A stretch of 64,000 nt of DNA from an uncultured Sulfitobacter sp. (GTDB taxonomy: Bacteria > Pseudomonadota > Alphaproteobacteria > Rhodobacterales > Rhodobacteraceae): NCBI RefSeq assembly GCF_947497275.1, contig NZ_CANMFS010000001.1:620001-684000 (forward strand). Reading direction: 5' to 3'. A model generated the notes under the pieces. The model was not told where the DNA came from. It searched no databases and saw nothing but the letters and a program-made list of their open reading frames with translations. The translations under genes were made by a program, and so were the position numbers. Positions 5,797 through 38,808 of the stretch are shown here, one piece after another (within the stretch, counting starts at the first letter, position 1; every line of letters begins with the position of its first letter).

Positions 5797-7659
5797 ATGG
5801 GACATGCAAACGCCGATCGGTTGAAACAACTTCTGCTGTCGATTGCCTTATTGGGCCTGCTGGCTGGGTCCGGTCTTTATCTGGCCGGAAGGGACCAGCT
5901 GGCCGATACCGTGTGGTTTGTCGGGGTGATACCCGTGCTGGCCGCCCTGTTGGTCGAGATTATCCGCAGCCTTCAGCGGGGCGATGTCGGGCTCGATATC
6001 GTTGCGGCACTGTCGATGACGGCGGCGCTCGCGTTCGGGGAAACGCTGGCGGCGGCTGTCGTTGCGGTGATGTACTCGGGCGGTACCTTTCTGGAGAACT
6101 TCGCCGAAGGGCGCGCACGCCGTGAAATGCACGATCTGCTGTCGCGGGTGCCGCGAACCGCGACACGGCACCGGAACGGTGGCCTTGAAGAAGTGCCGCT
6201 GGATGAAATAGAACCCGGCGACCTGCTGCTGATCCGGCAGGGCGATGTCGCCCCGGTGGACGGGACGATCGCATCCGATGAGGCGTTTCTCGACACATCC
6301 GCATTGACCGGTGAATCGTTGCCCGTGCAGCTGTCGCGCGGGGCCGAAGCGATGAGCGGGTCCACCAACGCCGGCGCGCCATTCGATCTGATCGCCACCC
6401 GCCCTGCGGCCCAGAGCACCTATGCGGGAATAGTGCGTCTGGTCGAAGAGGCGCAACGATCGAAGGCACCGATGGCGCGGTTGGCGGACCGCTGGTCACT
6501 GGGTTTCCTGGCGGTGACGGTGTTGATCGCGACTGCCGCATGGTGGTTCACCGGTGATCCGATCCGGGCCGTTGCGGTCCTTGTGGTGGCAACGCCCTGT
6601 CCGCTGATCCTGGCGGTTCCCGTGGCCCTGGTCGCCGGGTTGTCGCGGGCCGCGCATTACGGCGTCCTGATCAAGGGGGCCGGACCGCTGGAGACGATGG
6701 CGCGGGTTCAGACCCTGATCCTCGACAAGACCGGCACGCTGACGGACGGGCGTCCGCAGATCGTCGAAATCGACTGCGCTGCGCGTTGGAAAGCAGACGA
6801 TATTCTGCGCTTCGCGGCCGCCCTGGACCAAGCATCGAAACATCCCGTCGCGCAGGCTGTCGTCGCCGCTGCGCAGACGCGGGATCTGACGCTGCCGGTC
6901 CCTTCGCAGGTGGTCGAGTTCGCGGGCGAGGGCGTTTGCGGATCCGTCGACGGGCACGATGTGGTCGTGGGCGGCGAGGACTTCGTACGCGCGCGTGTGG
7001 CACCTGCTGCAGACGCACCACCGACCCGCACCGCGGGCGCGGTACTGGTGGCCGTGGCGGTCGACGGACAGTGGGCGGGACATCTCGTCATGGTCGATCC
7101 GCTGCGCCTTGGCACGAGAGAGATGCTGGGGGCTCTGCGCAAAGGCGGGATCGCCAGAATACTGTTGGCAACCGGCGACCGCGCGGATGTCGCCGAGCGG
7201 GTCACCGCAGGTCTTGGCCTGGACGGTTTGCGTTCCGGGCTGACACCGGATCAAAAGGTGCTTTTGGTGTTGAGCGAGCGCAAGAACGGACCCGTGATGA
7301 TGGTCGGAGACGGTGTCAACGATGCGCCGGCGCTTGCTGCGGCGGATGTGGGCGTGGCGATGGGCGCACGGGGTGCGGCGGCCTCCGCCGAGGCGGCGGA
7401 TGTTGTGCTGTTGGTCGACCGCGTTGACCGGCTTGGTCCGGGGATCGAGATCGCGCGGCGCGCCCGGGCCATCGCCGTGCAAAGCGTCGTGGCTGGCATC
7501 GGTCTGTCCGTCGCCGGTATGATCGCTGCGGCTTTCGGATACCTGACCCCGGTTCAAGGCGCGCTGGCGCAGGAAATCATCGACGTGGCGGTTATCCTGA
7601 ACGCCCTGCGCGCCCTGCGCATCGCCCCCGACGATCCCGACGCGCGGGAACCCAGTTGA
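5797..7659 (+). CDS. Heavy-metal-type (P1B-like) P-type ATPase
   Basis: 620 residues. An ATP-driven cation pump of the cytoplasmic membrane. It has the actuator motif TGES at 171-174, the phosphorylation site DKTGT with Asp310, an HP motif (SKHPVAQAV) and GDGVNDAPA in the hinge. The membrane metal-site motif is TPCP at 266-269 instead of the CPC of copper and zinc pumps, and there is no N-terminal heavy-metal-associated domain. This is a separate P1B-like group whose metal is not established. Members often sit near stress proteins and FtsH, as here. The ribosome binding site is weak. Downstream lie the UspA remnant and ftsH. Confidence 0.92.
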   Translation: MGHANADRLKQLLLSIALLGLLAGSGLYLAGRDQLADTVWFVGVIPVLAALLVEIIRSLQRGDVGLDIVAALSMTAALAFGETLAAAVVAVMYSGGTFLENFAEGRARREMHDLLSRVPRTATRHRNGGLEEVPLDEIEPGDLLLIRQGDVAPVDGTIASDEAFLDTSALTGESLPVQLSRGAEAMSGSTNAGAPFDLIATRPAAQSTYAGIVRLVEEAQRSKAPMARLADRWSLGFLAVTVLIATAAWWFTGDPIRAVAVLVVATPCPLILAVPVALVAGLSRAAHYGVLIKGAGPLETMARVQTLILDKTGTLTDGRPQIVEIDCAARWKADDILRFAAALDQASKHPVAQAVVAAAQTRDLTLPVPSQVVEFAGEGVCGSVDGHDVVVGGEDFVRARVAPAADAPPTRTAGAVLVAVAVDGQWAGHLVMVDPLRLGTREMLGALRKGGIARILLATGDRADVAERVTAGLGLDGLRSGLTPDQKVLLVLSERKNGPVMMVGDGVNDAPALAAADVGVAMGARGAAASAEAADVVLLVDRVDRLGPGIEIARRARAIAVQSVVAGIGLSVAGMIAAAFGYLTPVQGALAQEIIDVAVILNALRALRIAPDDPDAREPS

Positions 7660-7679
7660 CGACGTCGGTCTGGGGCAGC

Positions 7680-8274
7680 GGAGCGATGCGCCGGTCTGTG
7701 AGTGACGCCACCAAGCACCGGCAAATCGGACCCTTGATCAACGGCAGCACTTAGAATGGCCCGTGCCGAAGTGCGCTTGTCAGCGTGCAGTATACGTACA
7801 TCGGCATCCGGGCCGTGAAGGGAAAGATAGCCGGCAAGGGTCTCACAGCCCAGTTCGGTCACGTCTTTCTCGCTAGCGATGATGGTGGTCGCGGCCTTCG
7901 GACGCGCCATCAGAGGCAATGCCGCCGCCACTGCGCGCGCGGAGGCGGCGGAATTTTTCCATGGCAAGGTGATATTGGTGGCCGATGTCTTCAGCGGATC
8001 TATTGGTGACACGACCGAAAGTCGCCTGTGTGTGTGTGATGCCTGTCTCCAAGCTGTTGCATCTTCGCAAACAAAACTTCCACGCCATAGCTCCGAAGGC
8101 TGTCCAGGCAGACAACCCGGGTGCCGCCGGCTCTGTCACACAGAGTACTTCCACCAGCGCCCTGAAGGCTTCTGCGTAACTCAGCGCAACGCCAAATACC
8201 GGTCCGTCAAGGTTCCCCGGATCGTGAGGGTCGTATCGGCCGCTCATCGGGACGCCGATCTTGCGCAGTTTCAT
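7680..8274 (-). pseudogene. Broken two-domain universal stress protein (UspA)
   Basis: Reading leftward from an ATG at 8272-8274, the first 80 or so residues open like a two-domain UspA (MKLRKIGVPMSGRYDPHDP, then a VEVLCV strand) and run into unrelated sequence. From about 7960 down to 7680 another frame continues with a UspA C-terminal domain (ARAVAAALPLMARP, then TSARAILSAAVDQGSDLPVLGG and THRPAH). The middle, about 100 residues in intact relatives, is missing, and the frame after THRPAH reads into nonsense. So the gene has an internal deletion plus a frameshift. It lies antisense between the ATPase and ftsH, and its intact form would share the FNR-box region at 8329-8342. Confidence 0.75.
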
Positions 8275-8328
8275 CGGATGTTGCTTCTTGTCGATAATCC
8301 TTTCGGCAATGAACCGGCACGGTGCGCG

Positions 8329-8342
8329 TTGATTTGCATCAA
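8329..8342. promoter_or_regulatory. FNR/FnrL operator (perfect palindrome)
   Basis: TTGAT-TTGC-ATCAA matches the FNR consensus TTGAT-N4-ATCAA at all ten defined positions. It lies in the gap between the start of the broken UspA gene (8274, leftward) and the ftsH start (8441, rightward), 98 bp before the ftsH ATG. Oxygen-responsive control by FnrL of ftsH, and formerly of the usp gene, is inferred. Confidence 0.7.
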
Positions 8343-8440
8343 GGCGCTCGAATGCGATCGGGTGCAGGTTCCACGGTGTGGATGCCCGGTCCGCTGTGGC
8401 TATCGAACGGCGGCGGGTGTTCCGAGCACGGAGAGCAGAC

Positions 8441-10336
8441 ATGAGCAATCAATCCGATCCGGCGGGCCCGCAGAAGTTCGAGAGGTATTTGGTGCCCCTG
8501 CTGATCGGTCTTGCAGTTTTCATTTTTCTGTCCTCGCAGTTCCCGATTGGCGCAAATGATCCCCGAACGGTGACCTACACCGAAGTCAAATCCCGCATCG
8601 AGCGTGGTGATGTCAGCGCAGCGACGCTAGAGACAAACGCGATTGTCGTCGAGTTGCGCAATCCAACCGATACCGGGCAGGACAGGCTGCGCGCCATCAC
8701 ACCGCAGCAAACCGATCCTGAGCTGTTGCCGCTTCTCGAAGAGGCGGGTGTCACCATCACCGCCGAAGAGCCGCAATCCCCGTCCGTGCTGCTCGCGTTC
8801 CTGCCGTGGATTGCGATCGTTGCCTTCTATCTCTGGCTCAGCCGTCGGATGACGGGCGGCGGAATGGGCGGCGGCCTGCCGGGAGGCCTGGGTGATTTCA
8901 TGGACGGGCGCGCATCAAAGCCTACGGAACCCACCCGCAAGATCACCTTTGCGGACGTTGCCGGGCAGGACACAGCCAAACGCGAGGTGTCCGAACTGGT
9001 GGAATTCCTGCGCGATCCCGACCGGTTCCAGCGTGTCGGCGCGACGGTGCCGCACGGGGTGCTGCTGATGGGGCCACCGGGTACCGGCAAGACATTACTC
9101 GCGCGCGCGCTGGCAGGCGAGGCGGATGTGCCGTTCTTTTCCACCTCCGGATCAGAGTTCATCGAGGTATTCGTTGGCGTCGGCGCGGGCCGCGTACGCA
9201 AAATGTTCGAGGAGGCGCGCAAGAAGGCCCCAGCCATCATCTTTATCGACGAGTTGGACAGCATCGGACGCACCCGCGGCACCGGTCTGGGCGGTGGCCA
9301 CGACGAGCGCGAACAGACCCTTAATCAGATTCTCGCTGAACTCGACGGCTTTACCGCCCGCGAAGCGGTCGTGGTGCTGGCCGCGACCAACCGTCCGGAT
9401 GTTCTGGACCCGGCGCTGCTGCGGCCCGGGCGATTCGACCGGCACGTTACGCTGTCCTTGCCCGACAAGGTGGCGCGGAGGGCCATCCTTGATGTTCACG
9501 CCAAGAACCTGCCAATGTGTGCGGATGTCGATCTGGATCAGGTTGCGGCCGGCACGCCCGGATTTTCCGGCGCGGACCTGAAAAACCTGTTGAACGAGGC
9601 GGCAATTACAGCCGCGCGGCGGTCGGGGTCCGATATCGCCCCCGCCGATCTGGATGAAGCGCGCGACAAGGTGATGATGGGCACCCTGCGTACACTCGCG
9701 ATACAGCCCGACGAAAAGCACCGTCTTGCCGTGCACGAGGCAGGCCACACCGCTGCGGCGTATTATGATCCCGATGCAGATCCGCTTTACAAGGTCACAA
9801 TCATACCGCGAGGCCGTAGCCTTGGCAGCACCCATACGCTGCCGGAAAATGAACGCCATACGCTGCCCGAAGCTTATCTGCGGGGCCAGCTGACCACCCT
9901 GTTGGCGGGGCGGGCCGCCGAAAAACGGCTGCTGGGATCTGTCAGTTCCGGAGCCGATGACGATATTCGTCGGGCTACTGCATTGGCGCGCTCGATGGTG
10001 GCACGCTGGGGGATGGATCCCGATATCGGCCCGGTGGACCTGCGCGACAGTGACGAACACCCTTTTCTGGGGCAACAGATGGCCCAGCCTCGCGGGTTCG
10101 CCGACGAGACCGCCGGCCGTGTTGACCGGTCGGTCATGGCCTTGTTGCAGGCTGCGGAAACACAGGCCACTGCTTTGATCGACGCCCACCGCGACCAGAT
10201 CCGAATGCTGGTTGCGCGGCTGGAAGCCGAAGAAACACTGGATCTGGTCCAGATCAGGGAATGTCTGGACGAGGACCGGAAAGTACGGCCCTTCGTGGCA
10301 CCGGGCAAAGCCGCCGATCCCGAGACGGCCAGGTGA
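8441..10336 (+). CDS. ftsH: ATP-dependent zinc metalloprotease, FtsH family (accessory type)
   Basis: 631 residues from the ATG at 8441, chosen because GGAGAG precedes it at normal spacing. An upstream in-frame ATG at 8378 has no such site. Two membrane helices (about 16-33 and 117-134) flank a periplasmic segment. The AAA module shows Walker A GPPGTGKT (211-218), Walker B IIFIDELD (266-273) and the second region of homology ending in RPGRFDR. The zinc site HEAGH is at 432-436, and the third ligand is probably in the GADDDI segment. It degrades membrane and cytosolic proteins. The context (metal pump, Usp remnant, FNR operator) suggests an extra stress-linked FtsH rather than the main housekeeping copy. 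Confidence 0.93.
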
Positions 10337-11348: not shown

Positions 11349-12299
11349 TTACGGGTTCTCAGCATCTGTCGGCTGTTCATCTGTCTTCGAACCGCGAGAT
11401 TTTGCCGCAGATCCGGCGGAGCCCGGGATGATCTGGCTTATCGAGGCCAGAACCGAAAAGATGACTGCCATCGCCAGCAGCAAAGGGCTGGAAATCGCCA
11501 CGTCGACCCAATCGGGTTCAATCAAAACAGGTTGATCCAGGCCGAAATGACGGACCGACAGAGCCGTATTCCCAAGCTCAGAGATCATCGTAACTGCAAA
11601 ACCACCTTGCTCGGCGGGAATGACATGGCCGTAGACTTTCGCGGGCGTTCCGTCCGCGACGATCGCGACTTTGGATCCGGTCGAAAGCTCACCTGACTTC
11701 ACCACTTCGGTCAGCGACCGAAAGAAAGAAGTAACGACACCGGCCTCCCGTGCCTCCCACCGGCCATCATGCAGGAAATTCGCAGTACCCACCTGCATGT
11801 CCTGTCCGACAATGACCGATGCCCGAAAGGTCAAGGCGCCGGTATCGCGCCAGGCGGCCCTGGACATGATGAGCACACCATTCGGCGCGTTTGCCATCCC
11901 GCCGGGTTCGACAATAGCGATCTCAAGACCTCCGTCATCGCGGCTGTAGAGATTGACAACGGTATTTTCTGACCAGTTCAGGATCCACTCGCGCGCGGAG
12001 CCTTTCGGCGAAGACGCCTGACCGCAGGTCGCATCAGGTATCAGAGACGGTGCATCCAGCGGTTCGCACAGGAGAGCATTCGGCAATCGCCATATGTTCT
12101 GTCCTTCACTGAATGAAATCTGCATCCCACCGGTCCGGGCTTCGACCAGAAAACTCCGGCTCGAGCCAAAGATGATCAGGGACAAGAACAAGGTGACGAC
12201 GATCAGAACGAAAAACGGCAGCGACCGGCGATACAAATACGTGCGGCCGTGCGCCAGAAACCTCATGTTCTTGATCCCGTCCCCGAATTGCCCATGCAT
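11349..12299 (-). CDS. Membrane protein of unknown function with large extracytoplasmic domain
   Basis: 316 residues that I do not recognise. A basic N-terminus is followed by a transmembrane helix at about 28-46, roughly 220 residues of beta-rich, probably periplasmic sequence, and a second helix at about 267-290 with a polar cytoplasmic tail. It starts 6 bp after the preceding minus-strand secreted-protein gene, so the two form a likely operon. An internal ATG at 12266 is preceded by a better GGGA site, so the true protein may be 11 residues shorter. Its helix-domain-helix layout would suit a membrane partner or sensor for the neighbouring secreted proteins. Confidence 0.7.
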   Translation of the reverse strand: MHGQFGDGIKNMRFLAHGRTYLYRRSLPFFVLIVVTLFLSLIIFGSSRSFLVEARTGGMQISFSEGQNIWRLPNALLCEPLDAPSLIPDATCGQASSPKGSAREWILNWSENTVVNLYSRDDGGLEIAIVEPGGMANAPNGVLIMSRAAWRDTGALTFRASVIVGQDMQVGTANFLHDGRWEAREAGVVTSFFRSLTEVVKSGELSTGSKVAIVADGTPAKVYGHVIPAEQGGFAVTMISELGNTALSVRHFGLDQPVLIEPDWVDVAISSPLLLAMAVIFSVLASISQIIPGSAGSAAKSRGSKTDEQPTDAENP

Positions 12300-12305
12300 C
12301 TGCGA

Positions 12306-12992
12306 TCAGTCGCCAGGAAACCAGAGGATGATCGAAGTCGGCGGCACAGCCTTGCCTTTGACGATCCGCAATAATTGAACCTCGGTCGCACCGGCGGCGT
12401 GCACGTTTGCAAGCGGGCATCGGGTGTCGTAGGCGGATCGCCCATCGAGCGTCACTGGATCGCAGCGAACCGGTATCGTTGAATCCCCCACATAGGCGAA
12501 CACCGCGTCCGCCTGGAACGAGTTGACCAGAATGGCGGCGGATGCGCCATCTCCTCTGTTCCACCGGGCCATTGCGGCCTCTTCAGCCTGATGATCGCAA
12601 CCGCCCCGCGACAGGCGGACTCCGATCGCGTCTTGCCGGACCTGCCGAAGTTTGTCGTTGTACCGTGTAGGATAGGGCAATTCGGCCTGCCCACCCTGCC
12701 AATCACCGGAGACCTGATACTCATTTGTCGCTTCATAAAGCCCGTCCACCGCGACGACCCGCGCACAGACGGTTTCTCCGGCCCAGGCTGACGGTATGTG
12801 GGCTTCCATTGTAATCGCATCCGCCGAAAGCCCCTGTTGCTGGACACCGGTGATCAGGCTTCCGGAAATTCGAGCCGACGGAAGCACTTCTTCATGAAAC
12901 GGATCAGTTGCAAGCCGAAGCGTTTCCGCCTTCAATGGCGCGGCGGACAGAACAGCCAAGAGAAGAATTGTGCCGATGAAACGACGAAACAT
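12306..12992 (-). CDS. Secreted protein of unknown function
   Basis: 228 residues with a clean signal peptide (residues 1-22, ending PLKA). I chose the ATG at 12992 because AAGGA precedes it by 7 bases and because longer starts put the signal peptide inside the protein. The mature part has four cysteines (76, 132, 177, 192), which could form two disulphides in the periplasm. No known domain is recognised. The gene is divergent to the trypsin-like gene at 12976, and their first 17 bp overlap head to head. It is followed after 6 bp by the membrane protein gene ending at 11349. Confidence 0.75.
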   Translation of the reverse strand: MFRRFIGTILLLAVLSAAPLKAETLRLATDPFHEEVLPSARISGSLITGVQQQGLSADAITMEAHIPSAWAGETVCARVVAVDGLYEATNEYQVSGDWQGGQAELPYPTRYNDKLRQVRQDAIGVRLSRGGCDHQAEEAAMARWNRGDGASAAILVNSFQADAVFAYVGDSTIPVRCDPVTLDGRSAYDTRCPLANVHAAGATEVQLLRIVKGKAVPPTSIILWFPGD

Positions 12993-14052
12993 TCTGAAAA
13001 TCCTTTTCTGCATTCTTACTTTATCGACAATCTCCGGAATTTCCAGTCTCGCGACTGCGCAATCTGTCCGTATCCAGAACGGTTTGGGACAGTGGGGATA
13101 CGGTTGGATGTTCAATCACGCCGGAAACTGTTACGTGGCCCTCCCCGCCCATGTAGCCGGTCCGTTGCCAAAAGTCACAGTCGCGACGGCTGCTCCGGTA
13201 GTCAGTGATCAGGCAACTGTCCAGAAACCGTTCTGGGAAGGGGTCGACCTGGCTGTCGCGGTCATGGATCGCGGTGCGCTGAGCGAACGGTGCACCGCAT
13301 CGCTGAGCGATTTGGAGCCCACGCGACGGACGCGCGGTGCCGCAGAAGCGCTGCTACTGCGCATCACGCCCCTGGGCGAGGAAGAACGTCTGCCGGTCCG
13401 CGTGCTCGAACGGGGCTATCTTTCATTTACCGGCGAGATTGCTGATGGGGGAGACGTGATCGGGCAGGGGACGTCGGGCGCGTTTGCCTTTTCCGGCGCC
13501 AGGCCAATCGGCATGGCAATCACCTCCGACGACCCGTCGCGCGCGCTGTTCATGCGGGCCGAGGAAATCGCCATCAACCTCGGACGCTACCTCTCGGATC
13601 AGGGGAATGCCTTTCGCGTCGCACAACCTGCTGCCAATGTCCCGATCCGGGCCTCCGAAGGGCTGCCGATCCGACAGGTTATCGCCAATTCGCCCCCGAC
13701 GCTGCCGCAGTTTGCGCCCGAAAACCTGCTTGGTGACGGGTTCTATGTCACGCGACCCTCGGGCATGATCGAGATCACGCTGAGGTTGGGGGGCGCAGGC
13801 CCGAATGCTGTTCACCGCGTACGGCTGACCGCCCCCACGGAGGGATACGCGATACCGCGGGCCATTGCCGTGTACCTCGATGCGGGAGAAGACGGCGACC
13901 GGTTCAGGTTCTGGACCCAGGGTCAAATGACCCCTGACGGCGCGTTCGATACCGGGCCGCTAGCACCGCGCAACGCGAGATGGGTGCGTCTGGTCCTGCG
14001 CAGCGCCTGGAGCGAAGGGGATGTTGGGCTCGACAGTCTCACTGTAGAATAA
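12976..14052 (+). CDS. Secreted trypsin-like serine protease with C-terminal discoidin-like domain
   Basis: 358 residues with a signal peptide at about 1-29. The first half looks like a trypsin-fold protease. A candidate catalytic His59 lies in ALPAHV (TAAHV in classical members), Asp91 in GVDLAV and Ser167 in GQGTSGA, followed by a PIGMAI strand as in the usual GDSGG-to-VGI region. The second half (about 235-358) is a beta-sandwich of F5/8-C or discoidin type (ENLLGDGFY at its start, RWVRLVLRSAW near the end), usually a ligand-binding module. The AAGAGAAG site precedes ATG 12976; an in-frame GTG at 12970 is an alternative. Function is inferred from the motifs. It could be an inactive homologue. 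Confidence 0.7.
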   Translation: MKRRNILKILFCILTLSTISGISSLATAQSVRIQNGLGQWGYGWMFNHAGNCYVALPAHVAGPLPKVTVATAAPVVSDQATVQKPFWEGVDLAVAVMDRGALSERCTASLSDLEPTRRTRGAAEALLLRITPLGEEERLPVRVLERGYLSFTGEIADGGDVIGQGTSGAFAFSGARPIGMAITSDDPSRALFMRAEEIAINLGRYLSDQGNAFRVAQPAANVPIRASEGLPIRQVIANSPPTLPQFAPENLLGDGFYVTRPSGMIEITLRLGGAGPNAVHRVRLTAPTEGYAIPRAIAVYLDAGEDGDRFRFWTQGQMTPDGAFDTGPLAPRNARWVRLVLRSAWSEGDVGLDSLTVE

Positions 14053-14054
14053 GG

Positions 14055-14687
14055 TCAGTCGCTCAGCCTCAGCGTTGTCGGAAAGCTTCCAGTCACATTT
14101 GCGACGGAAGTTGCGCCGGTCAGCGACCCATCTTCGGAGAAAAAAAGGTTGCTGCGGGTGAAGTAATTCTTGTTGCTCTCATTGACTTTCGTGATCGAGA
14201 GGCCGGTCGGGCTGACGTCAATGGCACACCGTTCCGAACCTGTCCGAAGAAAGCAGTTCTGATCTGGATCGAACGTGCCGACATTTACTGAATACGTCGC
14301 AGCTCCGTTCGGTAACACGGTGCCACTTGTCGCATATCTGAAATACTCCTCGAACTTCTCGTCCGCGCCTTGAGAGGCATCAACCTTTAGCAGCAGGGTG
14401 GGCCGGGACCGCAAAAACCCCAGAACGGCCGTACGCCGTATTTCCGGCATCGCCGACTGCAAACCGAAATCCACCGCACTCTGCATCAGATGCGGCTCGC
14501 CACTCTCGATCATCAACTCCATCGCCGCCATCGACCGAACCGGGTCGGGATCGTTCAACAAGGCCTGAATGGGATCAAACGCCGCTGCACGCTTGTCGAC
14601 GAGCGCTTTCAACTCATTCGGTGTCAGCGCCACGGCAGACGTACCGATACTCAGCGCGGCCAAAACGGGTAACAATCTTTTCATCAT
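14055..14687 (-). CDS. Secreted protein, tandem paralogue 1 (HEAT-like N-terminal region)
   Basis: 210 residues from ATG 14687, preceded by AAAGGA. A second ATG directly follows. There is a signal peptide at about 1-20. The mature protein opens with an alpha-helical stretch containing LLNDPDPVRSMAAMELMIES, similar to a HEAT-like repeat, then a beta-rich C-terminal half with a cysteine pair (CFL and CAIDV) and the conserved end SEDGSLTG. It shares this whole plan with the next gene upstream (14720-15337), so the two are a duplicated pair. Function unknown. It converges on the protease gene with a 2 bp gap. Confidence 0.75.
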   Translation of the reverse strand: MMKRLLPVLAALSIGTSAVALTPNELKALVDKRAAAFDPIQALLNDPDPVRSMAAMELMIESGEPHLMQSAVDFGLQSAMPEIRRTAVLGFLRSRPTLLLKVDASQGADEKFEEYFRYATSGTVLPNGAATYSVNVGTFDPDQNCFLRTGSERCAIDVSPTGLSITKVNESNKNYFTRSNLFFSEDGSLTGATSVANVTGSFPTTLRLSD

Positions 14688-14719: not shown

Positions 14720-15337
14720 TCAGTCGAGCAGCTGAATCCTGATCGGATAGCGGTCGTTGCTGACAAGAACGCTGCCGATCAAATTGCCGTCTTCCGATAC
14801 GGTTACCGCGCCACGAAAAGAATAGTTGAAGTCGCCGTGCAGGAAGATGCCGTTTGCATTCACCGTGGCCGCGCACTCATCCTTGTCGGCCATCAAGGTG
14901 CACTCCTTGGCGTCGTCATACTGTCCGAGCTGCCAACGCGCATGGATCATCCCATCGTCGGTAAATGTGCCGCCCATTCTTCTGCCGATATCCTTCATAC
15001 CGGGAGAAAGACCGTCGGAACCATCGAAAGTAACAAGCAGGCGCGGGGACGTGCGCAGGTATGCTTCAAACGCCGCGGTCCGCACCGCCTCATTCGCGGA
15101 CAGCAGCCCATGCTCTAGCGCGATGTCGATCAGCTCCCTGTCTCCACTTTCCATCATGATACGCATTGCGCCGACGCTGCGGGCAGGATCGGGGTCGTTC
15201 AACAGGCTGGCATAGGGATTGGGCGTCGCCGCCTGTTCGTCGAGCATCCTTGCGATGTCTTCGGGTGACAGCGATTGCGCATGTGCGAAGACAGGCAAGA
15301 TGAAGACGGCAAGTGCCGAGATGAAATTAGGTCTCAT
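14720..15337 (-). CDS. Secreted protein, tandem paralogue 2 (HEAT-like N-terminal region)
   Basis: 205 residues with a signal peptide ending at AHA (about residue 20). It is clearly homologous along its length to the protein encoded at 14055-14687. Both have LLNDPDP-RS, AM--M-ESG, a DxSxG loop, a two-cysteine segment (here CTL and CAATV), SEDG-L-G and a final L-D. The divergence between the copies indicates an old duplication. I know of no function. The shared cysteines and the signal peptide place it in the periplasm or outside the cell. Confidence 0.75.
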   Translation of the reverse strand: MRPNFISALAVFILPVFAHAQSLSPEDIARMLDEQAATPNPYASLLNDPDPARSVGAMRIMMESGDRELIDIALEHGLLSANEAVRTAAFEAYLRTSPRLLVTFDGSDGLSPGMKDIGRRMGGTFTDDGMIHARWQLGQYDDAKECTLMADKDECAATVNANGIFLHGDFNYSFRGAVTVSEDGNLIGSVLVSNDRYPIRIQLLD

Positions 15338-16635: not shown

Positions 16636-19600
16636 ATGATCAGAACAATCGATTTCAACGCGCTTGTCACGGGCGAGACAGTCACCGATCAGTACCGGGC
16701 CGAAGGCGTGCGCATTTCAGCCGTCGCGAACGGAGCCGGCACAGATACGGCGATGGTGTTCGACACCAACGCACCCTCTGGAGGGGATGACGATCTCGCC
16801 ACGCGCAATCTCGACAACGTGCTTATCATCTCCGGGGACGCAGATGCCGGCGACCCGGACAGCAATGAGACGGGCGGCACGGTTACATTCGATTTCACCG
16901 GGCTGGTCACGGTCAAGTCGCTGACTTTCCTCGATCTTGATGAGCCTGCGCGTTTGTTTTTTTACGGCGCGGACGGATCCGTCATCAACGAGCAATTCGT
17001 GCCCGCAAACGGCAATAATGGCCAGAGCGTCGTTCAGCTTTCGGTCGAGGGGGTCGACCGCATGAAGGTCGTCACCACGGACTCCGCCGCACTCGACAAT
17101 CTGGTGTTCCGCGATGATGCGGTCGAGCCACCCGTCGGTAACGGGATCGTATCGAGCGATGATGATGACGATTTCATCGATCTGGGGTATACCGGCGATC
17201 CTGAAGGCGACCGGATAGACAACGGCGACGCGCTGATCGCGGGCGAGGCGCCCGACGATGACATCGTGGATGCCAATGGCGGCGATGATACCGTGTTCGC
17301 ACTTGACGGGGACGATGATGTCTACGCCGGAGCGGGCGACGACCTTGTCCATGGCGGCAACGGCGATGACCTGATTTATGGCGACCGCACGCTGGCCGAT
17401 GGTGACACGCCCGGCGAGTCCGTGCGCGAAAGTTTCAACTGGAGCGAGGAAGGCTTTGCCGACGGAGAGACCGTAACCGGATTTATTCAGAACACCGGTA
17501 CGACGAATGTGACGTTCTCGACACTGGGCGCCACGCCCAAGGCCTCGACGACCTATGCCACAGAAGTGACCAAGGTAGATGGGATCGACGGCGGCACAGA
17601 GACGGTGAGCAGCACAAGCTCTCTTGAGAGCGAAACGCGCCTTGACGGGCAAAACGCAAGCTATGCGCTGGCTTTCGATAGCGCCGTCTACGATGTCGCG
17701 TTCAACGTCAGTGACGTAGACGGGGACAGCAATGTGCGTGTTTCCGCCTTCGACGCAGACGGCAACTCTGCCGAAGTATCGCTGACTGCCGGTGGCGGCC
17801 TGACGCTGAGCGATAGCGACAGTGTGGCCGGCACTGAGACCGCAAACAGCGACGGCGGCTACGCCGATGCGTACAGCCCATTCTATGCGGTTGGCGTCGC
17901 CATCGCGGGACCGGTCTCGCGGGTCGTGATCGAGCATGCGCAGGACGGTACCGGCAATACGAACATCAATATTTCGGACGTTTTCTTTACAACCGGCGGT
18001 GACGATGCCTTCCCGGGCGGCAATGACGCGCTTTCCGGCGAGGCGGGTGACGACAGCATCTATGGTGAAGGCGGAAACGACACGATCACCGGCGGCGTGG
18101 GCGACGACCTGTTGTCGGGCGGCACCGGAAGCGATTCCATTACCGGCGGCGCAGGCGCGGACGCCATCAGTGGCGGCGCGGATGCGGACACGATCCTCGG
18201 TGGCACGGACGGTGACGTCGTGGACGGCGGCACGGACGGTATTGATCTCGACACGCTCGACCTCTCCGGCAGCGGTCCGCTGCGCGTCGTGAATGAGACG
18301 ACGGATGCGGACGGCGATTCGACGTCCGGCACCATCGAATTCCTCGACAGCGCCGGCGGCGGCGCAGGGTCGATGACCTTCGCCGAGATCGAAAACCTGA
18401 TCCTGCCCGAAAATGCGGCGCCAGTGGCCGAAGACGACACGGCCCGCACCGACGAAGAGACTGAAGTGACAATTTCCGTGCTGGCAAACGACAGCGACCC
18501 GGAGGGTGATCCGCTCAGCGTGACGGGGGCGAGCAGTGCGAATGGCGAGGCGGTTGTCAACGCCGACGGCACCGTGACCTTCACGCCCGCCGCAGGCTTC
18601 AACGGCGATGCGGTGATCAACTACACGATCACAGACGGCAACGGCGGGTTCGACGATGCAGTCGTGAACGTGACCGTTGATCCTGCCGCATCCGGCAACA
18701 CACCGCCCGTCACTACGAACGATACGGCGATCACCAACCAGGGCGCTCCGGTGGTGATTGAGGTTCTGGCCAACGACAGCGATCCGGACGGCGACACGCT
18801 GACCGTGCACACCGCGACCAGCCCGGACGGCGATGTCGCCCTCAATGACGATGGGACGATCACCTTTACACCGGCGGCGGACTTCAACGGATCTGCTGAG
18901 ATCACCTATGCCGCGTCGGACGGAAACGGCGGCGAGACACCGGGCACGGTAACCGTGACCGTCCGCGACGGGATCGTTTCCGGTACGAACGATGGCGATC
19001 TGATCGATGCGGATTATACGGGCGATCCCGAAGGAGATGTCGTCGATGGCGAAGACGCATTTCTTCCCGGTGAGGCACCGAACGACGATATCATTCAGGC
19101 GGGCGGTGGCAATGATACCGTTGTCGCAGGAGACGGAAACGACGATGTCACCGGCGGTGCGGGCGATGATCTGATCGAGACCGGAAATGGCGACGTGCTG
19201 CCTGATATCGGGTATCCCGGCGCGTTCGACCCCGATCCAACCCCGGATGACGACCGCGACAGCGTTGATGGCGGGGCGGGCAACGACACGATCCGCACCG
19301 GCAATGACCGCGACACCGTCGCCGGTGGCGAAGGGGATGACGAGATTAACGCAGGTATCGACGATGACGACGTGCAGGGCAACGGTGGCGACGACCGCAT
19401 CGTCGGCGGCGAAGGCAACGACAGCATCCTTGGTGGTGCGGGTGCCGATACGATCTATGCGGGCAACGATCCCGAAGAGATTCCCGACGGCCTCGACATC
19501 GAGAACGACGGTTCCGACCCGCTCGGCGCCGATCTGCGTCCTGGCAACGGTCGCGATTCCGTCAACGGCGGTGCGGGGGACGATGTCGTCTTCGGTGCCG

Positions 19601-20772
19601 ATGACGACGATCTGTTGACGGGCGGGTCGGGCAATGACTTCATCGATGGCGAGATCGACAATGACACTATCCTGGGTGGTTTGGGTGCCGACACGCTGAT
19701 CGGCGGTCAGGGTAATGACAGCCTCGAAGGCGGTCTTGGCACCGACATGCTGGAAGGGGGCATCGGCAACGATACGCTGCGCGGGAACCGTGACGACGAT
19801 ACGCTGCACGGCGGCGACGGCGATGATCTGCTCGACGGTGGCGGCCAGAACGACAGCCTGTCAGGTGATGACGGCAACGATACGCTTGAAGGCGCGACCG
19901 GCAACGACACGCTGGACGGGGGCGCGGGCAACGACGAGATGATCGGCGGTGCCGACCGCGACTTATTTTTGGGCGTCAATGCGGGTGACGTCGTGGACGG
20001 GTCCGAGACCGGGGACGACTTTGACTGCCTTGATCTCACAGGGTCCAAGCCTGACGGAGGACAGCTTGAGATCCTGCCGGATCCGGCGGAACCGTCGAAC
20101 CCGGAGAACGGGATCGTCCAGTATTTCAACGCGGACGGGTCAGATGCGGGCCAGCTGATCTTCTCGAACATCGAGAAAGTCATTCCTTGCTTCACGCCCG
20201 GCACACATATCGCAACAGCCAAGGGCGAGGTGAAGGTCGAAAACCTCAAGGTCGGCGACCGGATCATCACCCGCGACAACGGCATGCAACAGATCCGCTG
20301 GATCGGCGCGCGAGAAATGTCCGGCACTGAACTGGCGGCGAAAGCGCACTTGCGCCCGGTCCTGATCCGCGCGGGCGCGCTTGGAAACGGGTTGCCGGAG
20401 CGGGACATGATGGTATCGCCGAACCACCGCGTTCTGGTGGCGAATGACAAGACGGCGCTCTATTTCGAAGAGCGCGAGGTTCTGGTCGCGGCGAAGCATC
20501 TGACCGATGTTGAGGGAATCGACGTTGTTGACGTGTCGCACACCACCTACATTCACATCATGTTCGACCAGCATGAGGTAATCCTGTCGGACGGCACATG
20601 GAGCGAGAGCTTTCAGCCGGGCGACATGTCACTGGCAGGTGTCGGCGATGGGCAACGTGACGAGATCCTGGAATTGTTTCCCGAGCTTGCCACGCGCGAA
20701 GGCGTTGATGCCTACGCGGCCGCGCGCCGGTCCCTGAAGAAACACGAGGCCAAGCTGATTGTGAAGAAATGA
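16636..20772 (+). CDS. Large RTX calcium-binding protein with Ig/cadherin-like repeats and C-terminal Hint domain
   Basis: 1378 residues, very acidic, no Sec signal. The order is: a beta-rich N-terminal domain (about 1-155), RTX nonapeptide clusters of the GGxGxDxxx type (about 170-255), another beta domain, more RTX, two tandem cadherin/Ig-like repeats (starting near 593 and 688, each with VLANDSDP), a long RTX array (about 780-1120), then a Hint_2 domain starting at Cys1185 (CFTPGT, GDRIITRDNG, SPNHRVLV). RTX proteins are normally exported by type I secretion and fold on binding calcium. The Hint domain resembles hedgehog/intein self-processing domains. No type I exporter is encoded nearby. 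A second protein with the same end lies downstream. Confidence 0.9.
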   Translation: MIRTIDFNALVTGETVTDQYRAEGVRISAVANGAGTDTAMVFDTNAPSGGDDDLATRNLDNVLIISGDADAGDPDSNETGGTVTFDFTGLVTVKSLTFLDLDEPARLFFYGADGSVINEQFVPANGNNGQSVVQLSVEGVDRMKVVTTDSAALDNLVFRDDAVEPPVGNGIVSSDDDDDFIDLGYTGDPEGDRIDNGDALIAGEAPDDDIVDANGGDDTVFALDGDDDVYAGAGDDLVHGGNGDDLIYGDRTLADGDTPGESVRESFNWSEEGFADGETVTGFIQNTGTTNVTFSTLGATPKASTTYATEVTKVDGIDGGTETVSSTSSLESETRLDGQNASYALAFDSAVYDVAFNVSDVDGDSNVRVSAFDADGNSAEVSLTAGGGLTLSDSDSVAGTETANSDGGYADAYSPFYAVGVAIAGPVSRVVIEHAQDGTGNTNINISDVFFTTGGDDAFPGGNDALSGEAGDDSIYGEGGNDTITGGVGDDLLSGGTGSDSITGGAGADAISGGADADTILGGTDGDVVDGGTDGIDLDTLDLSGSGPLRVVNETTDADGDSTSGTIEFLDSAGGGAGSMTFAEIENLILPENAAPVAEDDTARTDEETEVTISVLANDSDPEGDPLSVTGASSANGEAVVNADGTVTFTPAAGFNGDAVINYTITDGNGGFDDAVVNVTVDPAASGNTPPVTTNDTAITNQGAPVVIEVLANDSDPDGDTLTVHTATSPDGDVALNDDGTITFTPAADFNGSAEITYAASDGNGGETPGTVTVTVRDGIVSGTNDGDLIDADYTGDPEGDVVDGEDAFLPGEAPNDDIIQAGGGNDTVVAGDGNDDVTGGAGDDLIETGNGDVLPDIGYPGAFDPDPTPDDDRDSVDGGAGNDTIRTGNDRDTVAGGEGDDEINAGIDDDDVQGNGGDDRIVGGEGNDSILGGAGADTIYAGNDPEEIPDGLDIENDGSDPLGADLRPGNGRDSVNGGAGDDVVFGADDDDLLTGGSGNDFIDGEIDNDTILGGLGADTLIGGQGNDSLEGGLGTDMLEGGIGNDTLRGNRDDDTLHGGDGDDLLDGGGQNDSLSGDDGNDTLEGATGNDTLDGGAGNDEMIGGADRDLFLGVNAGDVVDGSETGDDFDCLDLTGSKPDGGQLEILPDPAEPSNPENGIVQYFNADGSDAGQLIFSNIEKVIPCFTPGTHIATAKGEVKVENLKVGDRIITRDNGMQQIRWIGAREMSGTELAAKAHLRPVLIRAGALGNGLPERDMMVSPNHRVLVANDKTALYFEEREVLVAAKHLTDVEGIDVVDVSHTTYIHIMFDQHEVILSDGTWSESFQPGDMSLAGVGDGQRDEILELFPELATREGVDAYAAARRSLKKHEAKLIVKK

Positions 20773-37761: not shown

Positions 37762-38808
37762 TTAAGAAATGCGAATGCGTGGATTTAGGAAAACGTAGCC
37801 GATGTCGGATATCAGCTGCGTGAGCAGCACGACAAAGACCGACACGACAGACACCGCGAGCAGAAGCTCGATGTCGTTGTTGCTGGCTGCCTGAACGAGT
37901 ACCCAGCCAAAGCCCTTGTAATTGAACAGCGTCTCGACGATCACCACCCCGTTGAGCAGCCAGGGGATCTGCAACATGATAACAGTGAACGGCGCTATCA
38001 GCGCGTTGCGCAGCGCGTGTTTGATCACGATGTTGCCGAAGCTGACACCCTTGAGCCGTGCTGTGCGGATGTATTGCGCCGTCATCACCTCGGTCATCGA
38101 GGCCCGCGTCATGCGCGCGATATATCCCATCCCGTAAAGCGAGATCGTCAGCACCGGCAGAAAGAAATTCTCGAAGGTGGCGTTTTCCATCGCCGAGGTG
38201 GCGGATCCCTTGAACCATTTGAGCCCGAAGGCAGACGAGGCGAAAACGGCGATAAAGATGACGCCCGACACATATTCCGGCGTGGCCGTCGACATGATCG
38301 AAACGGTCGACAGCGACCGGTCGAGCTTGGACCCTTCGCGCATGCCCGCGAGCACCCCGATGATCAGCGCCATCGGTACCATCAGCACCAGCACCCACAG
38401 CATCAGCTTGCCCGTAAGCGCGAGCCGCGTGGTGACGATCTTACCGACATCCTCGCGGAACACGGTCGAGTATCCCCAATCGCCCTGCAGGACACCGCAG
38501 AAGCTGCGCCGCTCTTCGACGGATGCGTTTTCGGGGAAACAGCGGCCCATAACGGTGCCGTTCTCCAGTTCAGTGACCCATCCCGGGACGACGCCCAGCC
38601 ATTGACCGAATTTGACCGGCAAAGGTTCCAGATAGCCGCGGTTGCCGAGGTAGGACGATACGGCCTCATCGCTCATGCGAAAGTTGCCTTGTGTCTTGGC
38701 AAGCTTTTCGAGGTTCGGATAAAGGTTCGTCAGCCAGAACACGATGAACGTCAGGCACAGGGCCGTGACCAGCATCACGCCCAGACGTCTGAGGATGAAT
38801 AGTCCCAT
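37762..38808 (-). CDS. ABC transporter permease, DppB type
   Basis: 348 residues. It starts with LGVMLVTALCLTFIVFWLTNLYPN, has a periplasmic loop after the first helix (about 35-110) and then five helices with TARLKGVSFGNIVIKHALRNALI as the EAA loop. It belongs to the binding-protein-dependent peptide permeases. It is the first gene of the operon. No solute-binding protein gene is attached, unlike most such systems. Confidence 0.9.
   Translation of the reverse strand: MGLFILRRLGVMLVTALCLTFIVFWLTNLYPNLEKLAKTQGNFRMSDEAVSSYLGNRGYLEPLPVKFGQWLGVVPGWVTELENGTVMGRCFPENASVEERRSFCGVLQGDWGYSTVFREDVGKIVTTRLALTGKLMLWVLVLMVPMALIIGVLAGMREGSKLDRSLSTVSIMSTATPEYVSGVIFIAVFASSAFGLKWFKGSATSAMENATFENFFLPVLTISLYGMGYIARMTRASMTEVMTAQYIRTARLKGVSFGNIVIKHALRNALIAPFTVIMLQIPWLLNGVVIVETLFNYKGFGWVLVQAASNNDIELLLAVSVVSVFVVLLTQLISDIGYVFLNPRIRIS

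Follow-up and report, generated by a model that had tools for sequence, protein, structure and literature searches.

What is the run of genes for predicted extracytoplasmic proteins found in an uncultured Sulfitobacter sp., and do these genes belong together? They lie in a stretch of 64,000 nucleotides of contig NZ_CANMFS010000001.1 (positions 620,001 to 684,000), referred to here as the window, for which a first-pass annotation had proposed an envelope set of three proteins: a trypsin-like/discoidin protein (gene A), a four-cysteine secreted protein (gene B), and a two-helix membrane protein with a large outer domain (gene C). All three reading frames are where they had been placed. The proposed set stands in that A, B, and C are linked at all 36 loci, but it is incomplete, a fourth family, gene D, having been overlooked. 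Together, A, B, C, and D are one four-family gene cassette, complete at all 36 loci examined. The cassette occurs in several alphaproteobacterial families and likely encodes a proteolytic apparatus of the envelope.

A cassette of four gene families

An open-frame search around A found A, B, C, and D all present at 36 of 36 distinct loci, every one of which was selected through A. These are the window, L006 to L019, L066 to L084, L117, and L118. Loci L020, L021, L065, and L119, whose contigs are identical in length to those of L071, L067, L009, and L019, respectively, were counted as second copies of these. The annotated plasmid stretches L127 to L129 are outside the 36, as are L110 to L112, which were selected through D.

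A less biased test of the linkage comes from separate profile searches of the same 394 genomes, which identified A in 17, B in 14, C in 11, and D in 18. All 14 of the B genomes and all 11 of the C genomes also carry A, and the coordinates place the genes beside it. For B, co-occurrence with A would be expected by chance in approximately 0.6 genomes (14 x 17 / 394). Co-occurrence across genomes had been suggested as a check on the original proposal, and the three genes do co-occur. Of the genomes with D, 16 of 18 carry A. One A genome, G148, has no D by the D profile search, but a divergent form, D', adjoins its A. By open-frame search, all 17 of the A genomes show B, C or its divergent form C', and D or D'.

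The cassette is patchily distributed. Within the window's genus, A was found in the source genome as well as in G001 and G011, and none of the others among the 24 listed genomes gave a match. A draw from the class has A in 5 of 289 genomes (the source genome, G038, G447, G456, and G672), and in a draw of 90 genomes from the phylum a search with the divergent-form profile gave matches in two (the source genome and G456), both of this class.

Mean identities over the 36 loci are 0.30 for A (30% mean pairwise identity), 0.26 for B, 0.24 for C, and 0.30 for D. The identity matrices of the four families correlate with each other, with r of 0.76 to 0.91 over the 36 loci and 0.70 to 0.89 over 32 core loci, these values being without control for the species tree.

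At 31 loci, B and C run in one direction and A in the other, with D facing A; the exception is L071, where D is beyond C. The same layout is shared by L016. Four loci, L078, L079, L080, and L118, have B, C', and A' in that sequence on a single strand, and there D' faces A'. Profile comparison supports the homology of A', C', and D' to A, C, and D with probabilities of 99.1, 97.7, and 98.8%, respectively, and A' retains the catalytic triad of A. The linkage has therefore outlasted both changed gene order and deep divergence, and this is the strongest sign that the cassette is a functional unit.

Gene D was found by comparison of the neighbourhoods, as a cluster of proteins of approximately 205 residues in 32 of 35 loci, a count that takes in one duplicate (L065, which is L009). 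The three loci outside the cluster carry the divergent D form. There are tandem copies of D at some loci, two in the window, L069, L070, and L072, and three in L073; both of the window copies face A. D-like genes are also found at L110 (2586-3398), L111 (8070-8714), and L112 (7914-8540), where the sequence covered contains none of the other three genes.

The starts of A and B are head to head in the divergent layout. Start codons were picked by our own scoring, which favours a signal-peptide-like N-terminus and leaves out L016 (no B start) as well as L078 to L080 and L118 (A and B on one strand). The A and B genes so delimited overlap at 21 of the 31 scorable divergent loci, with an identical reading phase in all 21, and at the other ten are separated by 1 to 58 bases. 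Seven of the overlaps are exactly two bases, in a shared CATG (L008, L015, L017, L018, L068, L081, and L082). The largest, 101 bases at L006, is probably due to a wrong start. The annotation of Cereibacter sphaeroides pC has a 22-base gap between A and B versus the CATG overlap given by our scoring (L068), and that of Tistrella pTM2 has a 2-base overlap versus 23 (L019). If the starts are correct, then the ribosome site of each gene, and likely its promoter too, is inside the other gene. Consensus scans for promoters and terminators gave nothing above shuffled sequences.

Predicted features of the four proteins

The open frame of A spans 12970 to 14052 on the + strand, and the 358-residue reading uses the ATG at 12976. 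In its structure model, residues 24 to 210 have a trypsin/HtrA-type fold and residues from about 230 to 357 form a discoidin/CBM32-type domain. Both folds of the trypsin-like/discoidin protein first described are thus in the model, structure prediction having been one of the suggested checks of the trypsin fold. The residues His59, Asp91, and Ser167 are as the first-pass annotation gave them, and the triad is unchanged in all 47 aligned homologues and all 36 cassettes. Cys52 and Cys106 are likewise invariant in the 47 homologues. The prediction for A is an active serine protease of trypsin fold. At least 86 further proteins of the A family were found, the scoring having covered the 7995 best candidates; the B family has 15 further proteins and the C family 25.

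The N-termini of A, B, and both D proteins of the window each have one hydrophobic stretch of the signal-peptide kind, as read from hydropathy rather than by a signal-peptide program.

The discoidin half of A matches the chitosan-binding module 4zxe (TM-score by target length 0.83, 2.1 A) and the alginate-lyase CBM32 7d2a (TM-score by target length 0.79). These share their fold with the last 130 residues of A, where it is fused to a protease. By sequence, the similarity of this domain to CBM32/discoidin sequences is not significant (best E 0.071). Domains of the CBM32 type are frequent in carbohydrate-degrading extracellular enzymes, as seen among the structure matches, and A may on these grounds be a digestive protease for nutrient scavenging, with its binding domain attaching it to glycoproteins or cell walls. 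A digestive enzyme, however, would have no need of three partner families that accompany it at 36 of 36 loci, a membrane protein among them, which makes this very unlikely.

Scanning A and its relatives against Pfam turned up no PDZ model. The GCV_T_C family, to which the A of the window has a weak match, was matched by 10 of the 47 homologues (best E 6.8e-4) over the loop of Ser167 (residues 155 to 186), which is modelled as trypsin fold, and the match was taken as chance. At L067 (about 6544-8787; G154:C14:8650-8772), a second short stretch between A and D resembles the discoidin end of A (E 5.8e-8) and is perhaps the remnant of a duplication.

The open frame of B lies within 12306 to 13115 on the - strand. 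Its four cysteines are kept in 39 of 39 alignment rows and at all 36 loci, in agreement with the four-cysteine secreted protein of the first description, secretion being predicted from hydropathy.

The earlier description of C as a two-helix membrane protein with a large outer domain is likewise supported. There are two hydrophobic stretches, at residues 24 to 52 and 263 to 295 of the 316-residue reading, and a predicted beta ectodomain; about 8 to 25 residues precede the first helix and about 25 follow the last. The charge bias of the K and R residues, 5 versus 1 before the first stretch and 3 versus 1 after the second, predicts an N-in/C-in topology. No good match to the beta ectodomain was found in the PDB. 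A weak family-scan match of C to PsbI was set aside.

The first half of D resembles HEAT-repeat proteins. Pfam HEAT_2 was matched by 11 of 35 D members (best E 1.2e-4), neither window copy being matched on its own, and the best PDB sequences for this half are synthetic repeat proteins (E 2.4e-5), with alphaRep at E 2.6e-4. D differs from HEAT-repeat proteins in being short, in being predicted to be secreted, and in having a second half with two cysteines, which are invariant in 35 aligned rows.

Table 1. Locations of the cassette genes and their features in the window.
Feature	Position	Strand	Basis
Gene A, predicted secreted trypsin-fold serine protease with C-terminal discoidin/CBM32-type domain	12976..14052	+	ORF (open reading frame), homologue alignment, structure model
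His59 codon, catalytic triad of A	13150..13152	+	invariant in alignments
Asp91 codon, catalytic triad of A	13246..13248	+	invariant in alignments
Ser167 codon, catalytic triad of A, G-T-S-G motif	13474..13476	+	invariant in alignments
Gene B, four-cysteine protein (all four invariant), predicted to be secreted	12306..12992	-	AAGGA precedes the start at 12992; 13013 is an alternative start
Head-to-head overlap of inferred A and B starts, 17 bases	12976..12992	.	start inference; AAGGA before B start
Gene C, predicted two-helix membrane protein, beta ectodomain between the helices	11349..12299	-	ORF, model, hydropathy; alternative start 12266
Gene D, copy adjoining A, predicted secreted HEAT-like protein, C-terminal half with two cysteines	14055..14684	-	neighbourhood clustering, alignment
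Gene D, second copy	14720..15337	-	neighbourhood clustering, alignment

Known systems and a possible mode of action

The cassette proteins of the window reached no curated family cut-off. PADLOC had no families for A, B, C, or either D at E up to 1, and in PADLOC and PHROGs nothing better than E 0.35 was found for the window proteins. No description of the cassette was found in the literature searched, which was of open-licence papers. Within these libraries and papers, the earlier statement that no named system is known with this composition still holds.

A has in common with HtrA, DegS, DegP, and DegQ (S1C) the trypsin-type fold, in A by model, and the His-Asp-Ser triad. It differs in having a discoidin/CBM32-type domain in the position of the PDZ domain, in being so distant in sequence that Pfam Trypsin_2 misses it, and in having the obligatory partner genes B, C, and D. 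Having the HtrA fold and triad without a PDZ domain, A is not filed as HtrA. The DegS-RseA-RseB cascade is alike in combining a periplasmic protease with a membrane partner and a soluble periplasmic partner, but C, with its two helices, lacks a cytoplasmic domain of appreciable size, and there is no sigma factor in the conserved set here. Trypsin-like peptidases are also central to a multigene alphaproteobacterial system in LypABC, a CARD-NLR-like system of Caulobacter crescentus. According to PMC13236601, ATPase domains are present in LypA and LypB and an endonuclease domain in LypC, and the cassette differs from this in being without ATPase- or endonuclease-type members.

In DegS, binding of a signal by the PDZ domain is followed by proteolytic cleavage of a membrane protein (PMC6815195). 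By analogy, the cassette may work as a membrane-tethered, ligand-switched periplasmic protease module like DegS/HtrA in which a discoidin domain occupies the PDZ position, a tentative reading to which we would give somewhat less than an even chance. Its proteins would come together in the periplasm: the protease and its ligand-reading domain, an anchor in the membrane, and a pair of secreted partners. In A, the discoidin domain would stand in for the PDZ domain of DegS/HtrA, and a glycan or other envelope ligand bound to it would switch A on. The predicted membrane protein C would anchor the assembly in the inner membrane. B and D, as predicted secreted partners, would control or feed the protease, and B, the C ectodomain, or D may be what A cuts or what restrains it. 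The first-pass annotation had read the set as protease, substrate or inhibitor, and membrane receptor; this is supported in part, the protease by prediction, with the receptor, substrate, and inhibitor roles being putative.

Several observations weigh against this reading. Discoidin-type domains also bind proteins and lipids, thus a glycan ligand for A is a guess. C is without a sizeable cytoplasmic part, its first helix running from residue 9 and its last ending at residue 290 of 316, so a trans-membrane signal in the style of DegS-RseA is not obvious. D is not tied to A alone, since it occurs in the A-less genomes G164 and G166, and a further copy lies on a separate contig of G402. Each of the two cysteines of D is kept at 32 of the 36 loci, whereas those of C are kept at 36 and 32. 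Pfam Trypsin_2 reaches 1 of the 47 homologues of A (E 0.33), and the A of the window is not among the 7 Trypsin_2 hits in the source genome.

It is also conceivable that the cassette serves signal transduction, with A cutting the C ectodomain after ligand binding and C then signalling to the cytoplasm or opening a path through the membrane. The form of C, two helices around a large ectodomain, is consistent with this, as are the two-helix PAC/ASOR channels that make up the first rows of a layout search with C. DegS provides a precedent, cutting its membrane partner once the regulatory domain has bound a signal (PMC6815195). Considering the short cytoplasmic ends of C, such signalling is rather improbable.

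A bolder version of the ligand-switched protease module is doubtful: a new transferable envelope surveillance system, in which a glycan-reading periplasmic protease would cut the ectodomain, of unmatched fold, of a two-helix membrane protein, with B and D as lock and adaptor, and in which protease and lock, head to head with overlapping start codons, would be opposed in expression. If the main reading, the membrane-tethered module, is right, alphaproteobacteria own a self-contained envelope protease module, unnamed in the curated libraries used, that moves between orders as a unit. Two protein families yet to be characterised would be added with B and C, and the overlapping A and B starts would offer a compact natural example of genes opposed in expression. 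The copy on pC of Cereibacter sphaeroides 2.4.1, a laboratory strain, makes the function directly testable.

Probable movement of the cassette, and its surroundings

In the tree built from the A proteins of the 36 loci, the copy from Tistrella (Geminicoccaceae, order Geminicoccales) and that of G447 are within a supported group (98/96) of Rhodobacterales copies, and three Roseovarius copies are placed in three spots. A was found on ten plasmid records, seven from Cereibacter, two from Paracoccus, and one from Tistrella, of which three were examined in detail; pC of C. sphaeroides 2.4.1 is one of the plasmids with a copy, and by position D is there DQL45_RS22020, A RS22025, B RS23585, and C RS22035. 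Among the other seven plasmid matches (H3, H5 to H10), two of those in Cereibacter coincide with no annotated feature and a third with two features, so some copies may be broken. No match to A was found in phage records. The cassette looks to have been transferred horizontally, between orders, and it occurs on plasmids. In G001, of the window's genus, there are two complete, distantly related cassettes (L081 and L084).

The neighbouring genes were compared as a set of 139 open frames of at least 140 residues from 31 loci, no more than three from one flank and two from the opposite flank, based on our own gene calling, and 116 of these were scanned. There is no common neighbour family: for the 25 commonest of 115 Pfam families, none is in more than 4 of the 116 at E 1e-8, and there may be single mobile-element genes. 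PADLOC gave five families with one member each at E 1e-15, TniQ and IetA among them. With such scattered matches, the setting does not resemble a defence island.

Patchy presence, in 17 of 394 genomes, may also reflect a secreted antagonist, in which the discoidin domain would direct A, as a protease weapon, against other cells, D (and perhaps B) would give immunity, and C would be a membrane receptor or export partner. Extra and orphan copies are frequent among immunity genes. The tandem copies of D, its presence without A in G164 and G166, and the two distant cassettes of one genome are in keeping with this. On the other hand, A does not exceed B and C in variability, C accompanies A as constantly as D does, and dedicated secretion genes are absent from the conserved set, as judged from the 25 commonest Pfam families of the neighbour scan. 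An antagonist is, on balance, unlikely.

The patchy spread, plasmid carriage, and transfer between orders would equally fit an envelope defence against phage or other invading elements. Against this, the window proteins are without a PADLOC match, the single-member PADLOC families among the neighbours make the loci unlike defence islands, and phage records have no match. Defence is thus very improbable, and the membrane-tethered protease module remains the reading preferred here.

Individual neighbours were seen at some loci. On the Cereibacter sphaeroides plasmid (L068 12211-14656; L128 2425-4870), the strand that carries B and C has, downstream of them, genes for proteins of 130 and 193 residues and a caspase-family protein, the latter with an N-terminal hydrophobic stretch. 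The caspase-family gene clusters with no gene of any other locus and was not counted as part of the cassette. In the window, the cassette is preceded by genes for a metal-type P-ATPase (Pfam) and an FtsH-like protease (by sequence reading) at 5797-10336 on the + strand, and the latter gene clusters with a cassette neighbour in L070 (5996-7882, - strand). Adjoining the cassette at 16636-20772 on the + strand is a gene for a protein of 1378 residues that has RTX repeats, cadherin/Ig-like domains, and a C-terminal Hint domain. Elsewhere in the window, positions 38007-38185 on the + strand match the Rfam family Cis52_sRNA with 121.3 bits.
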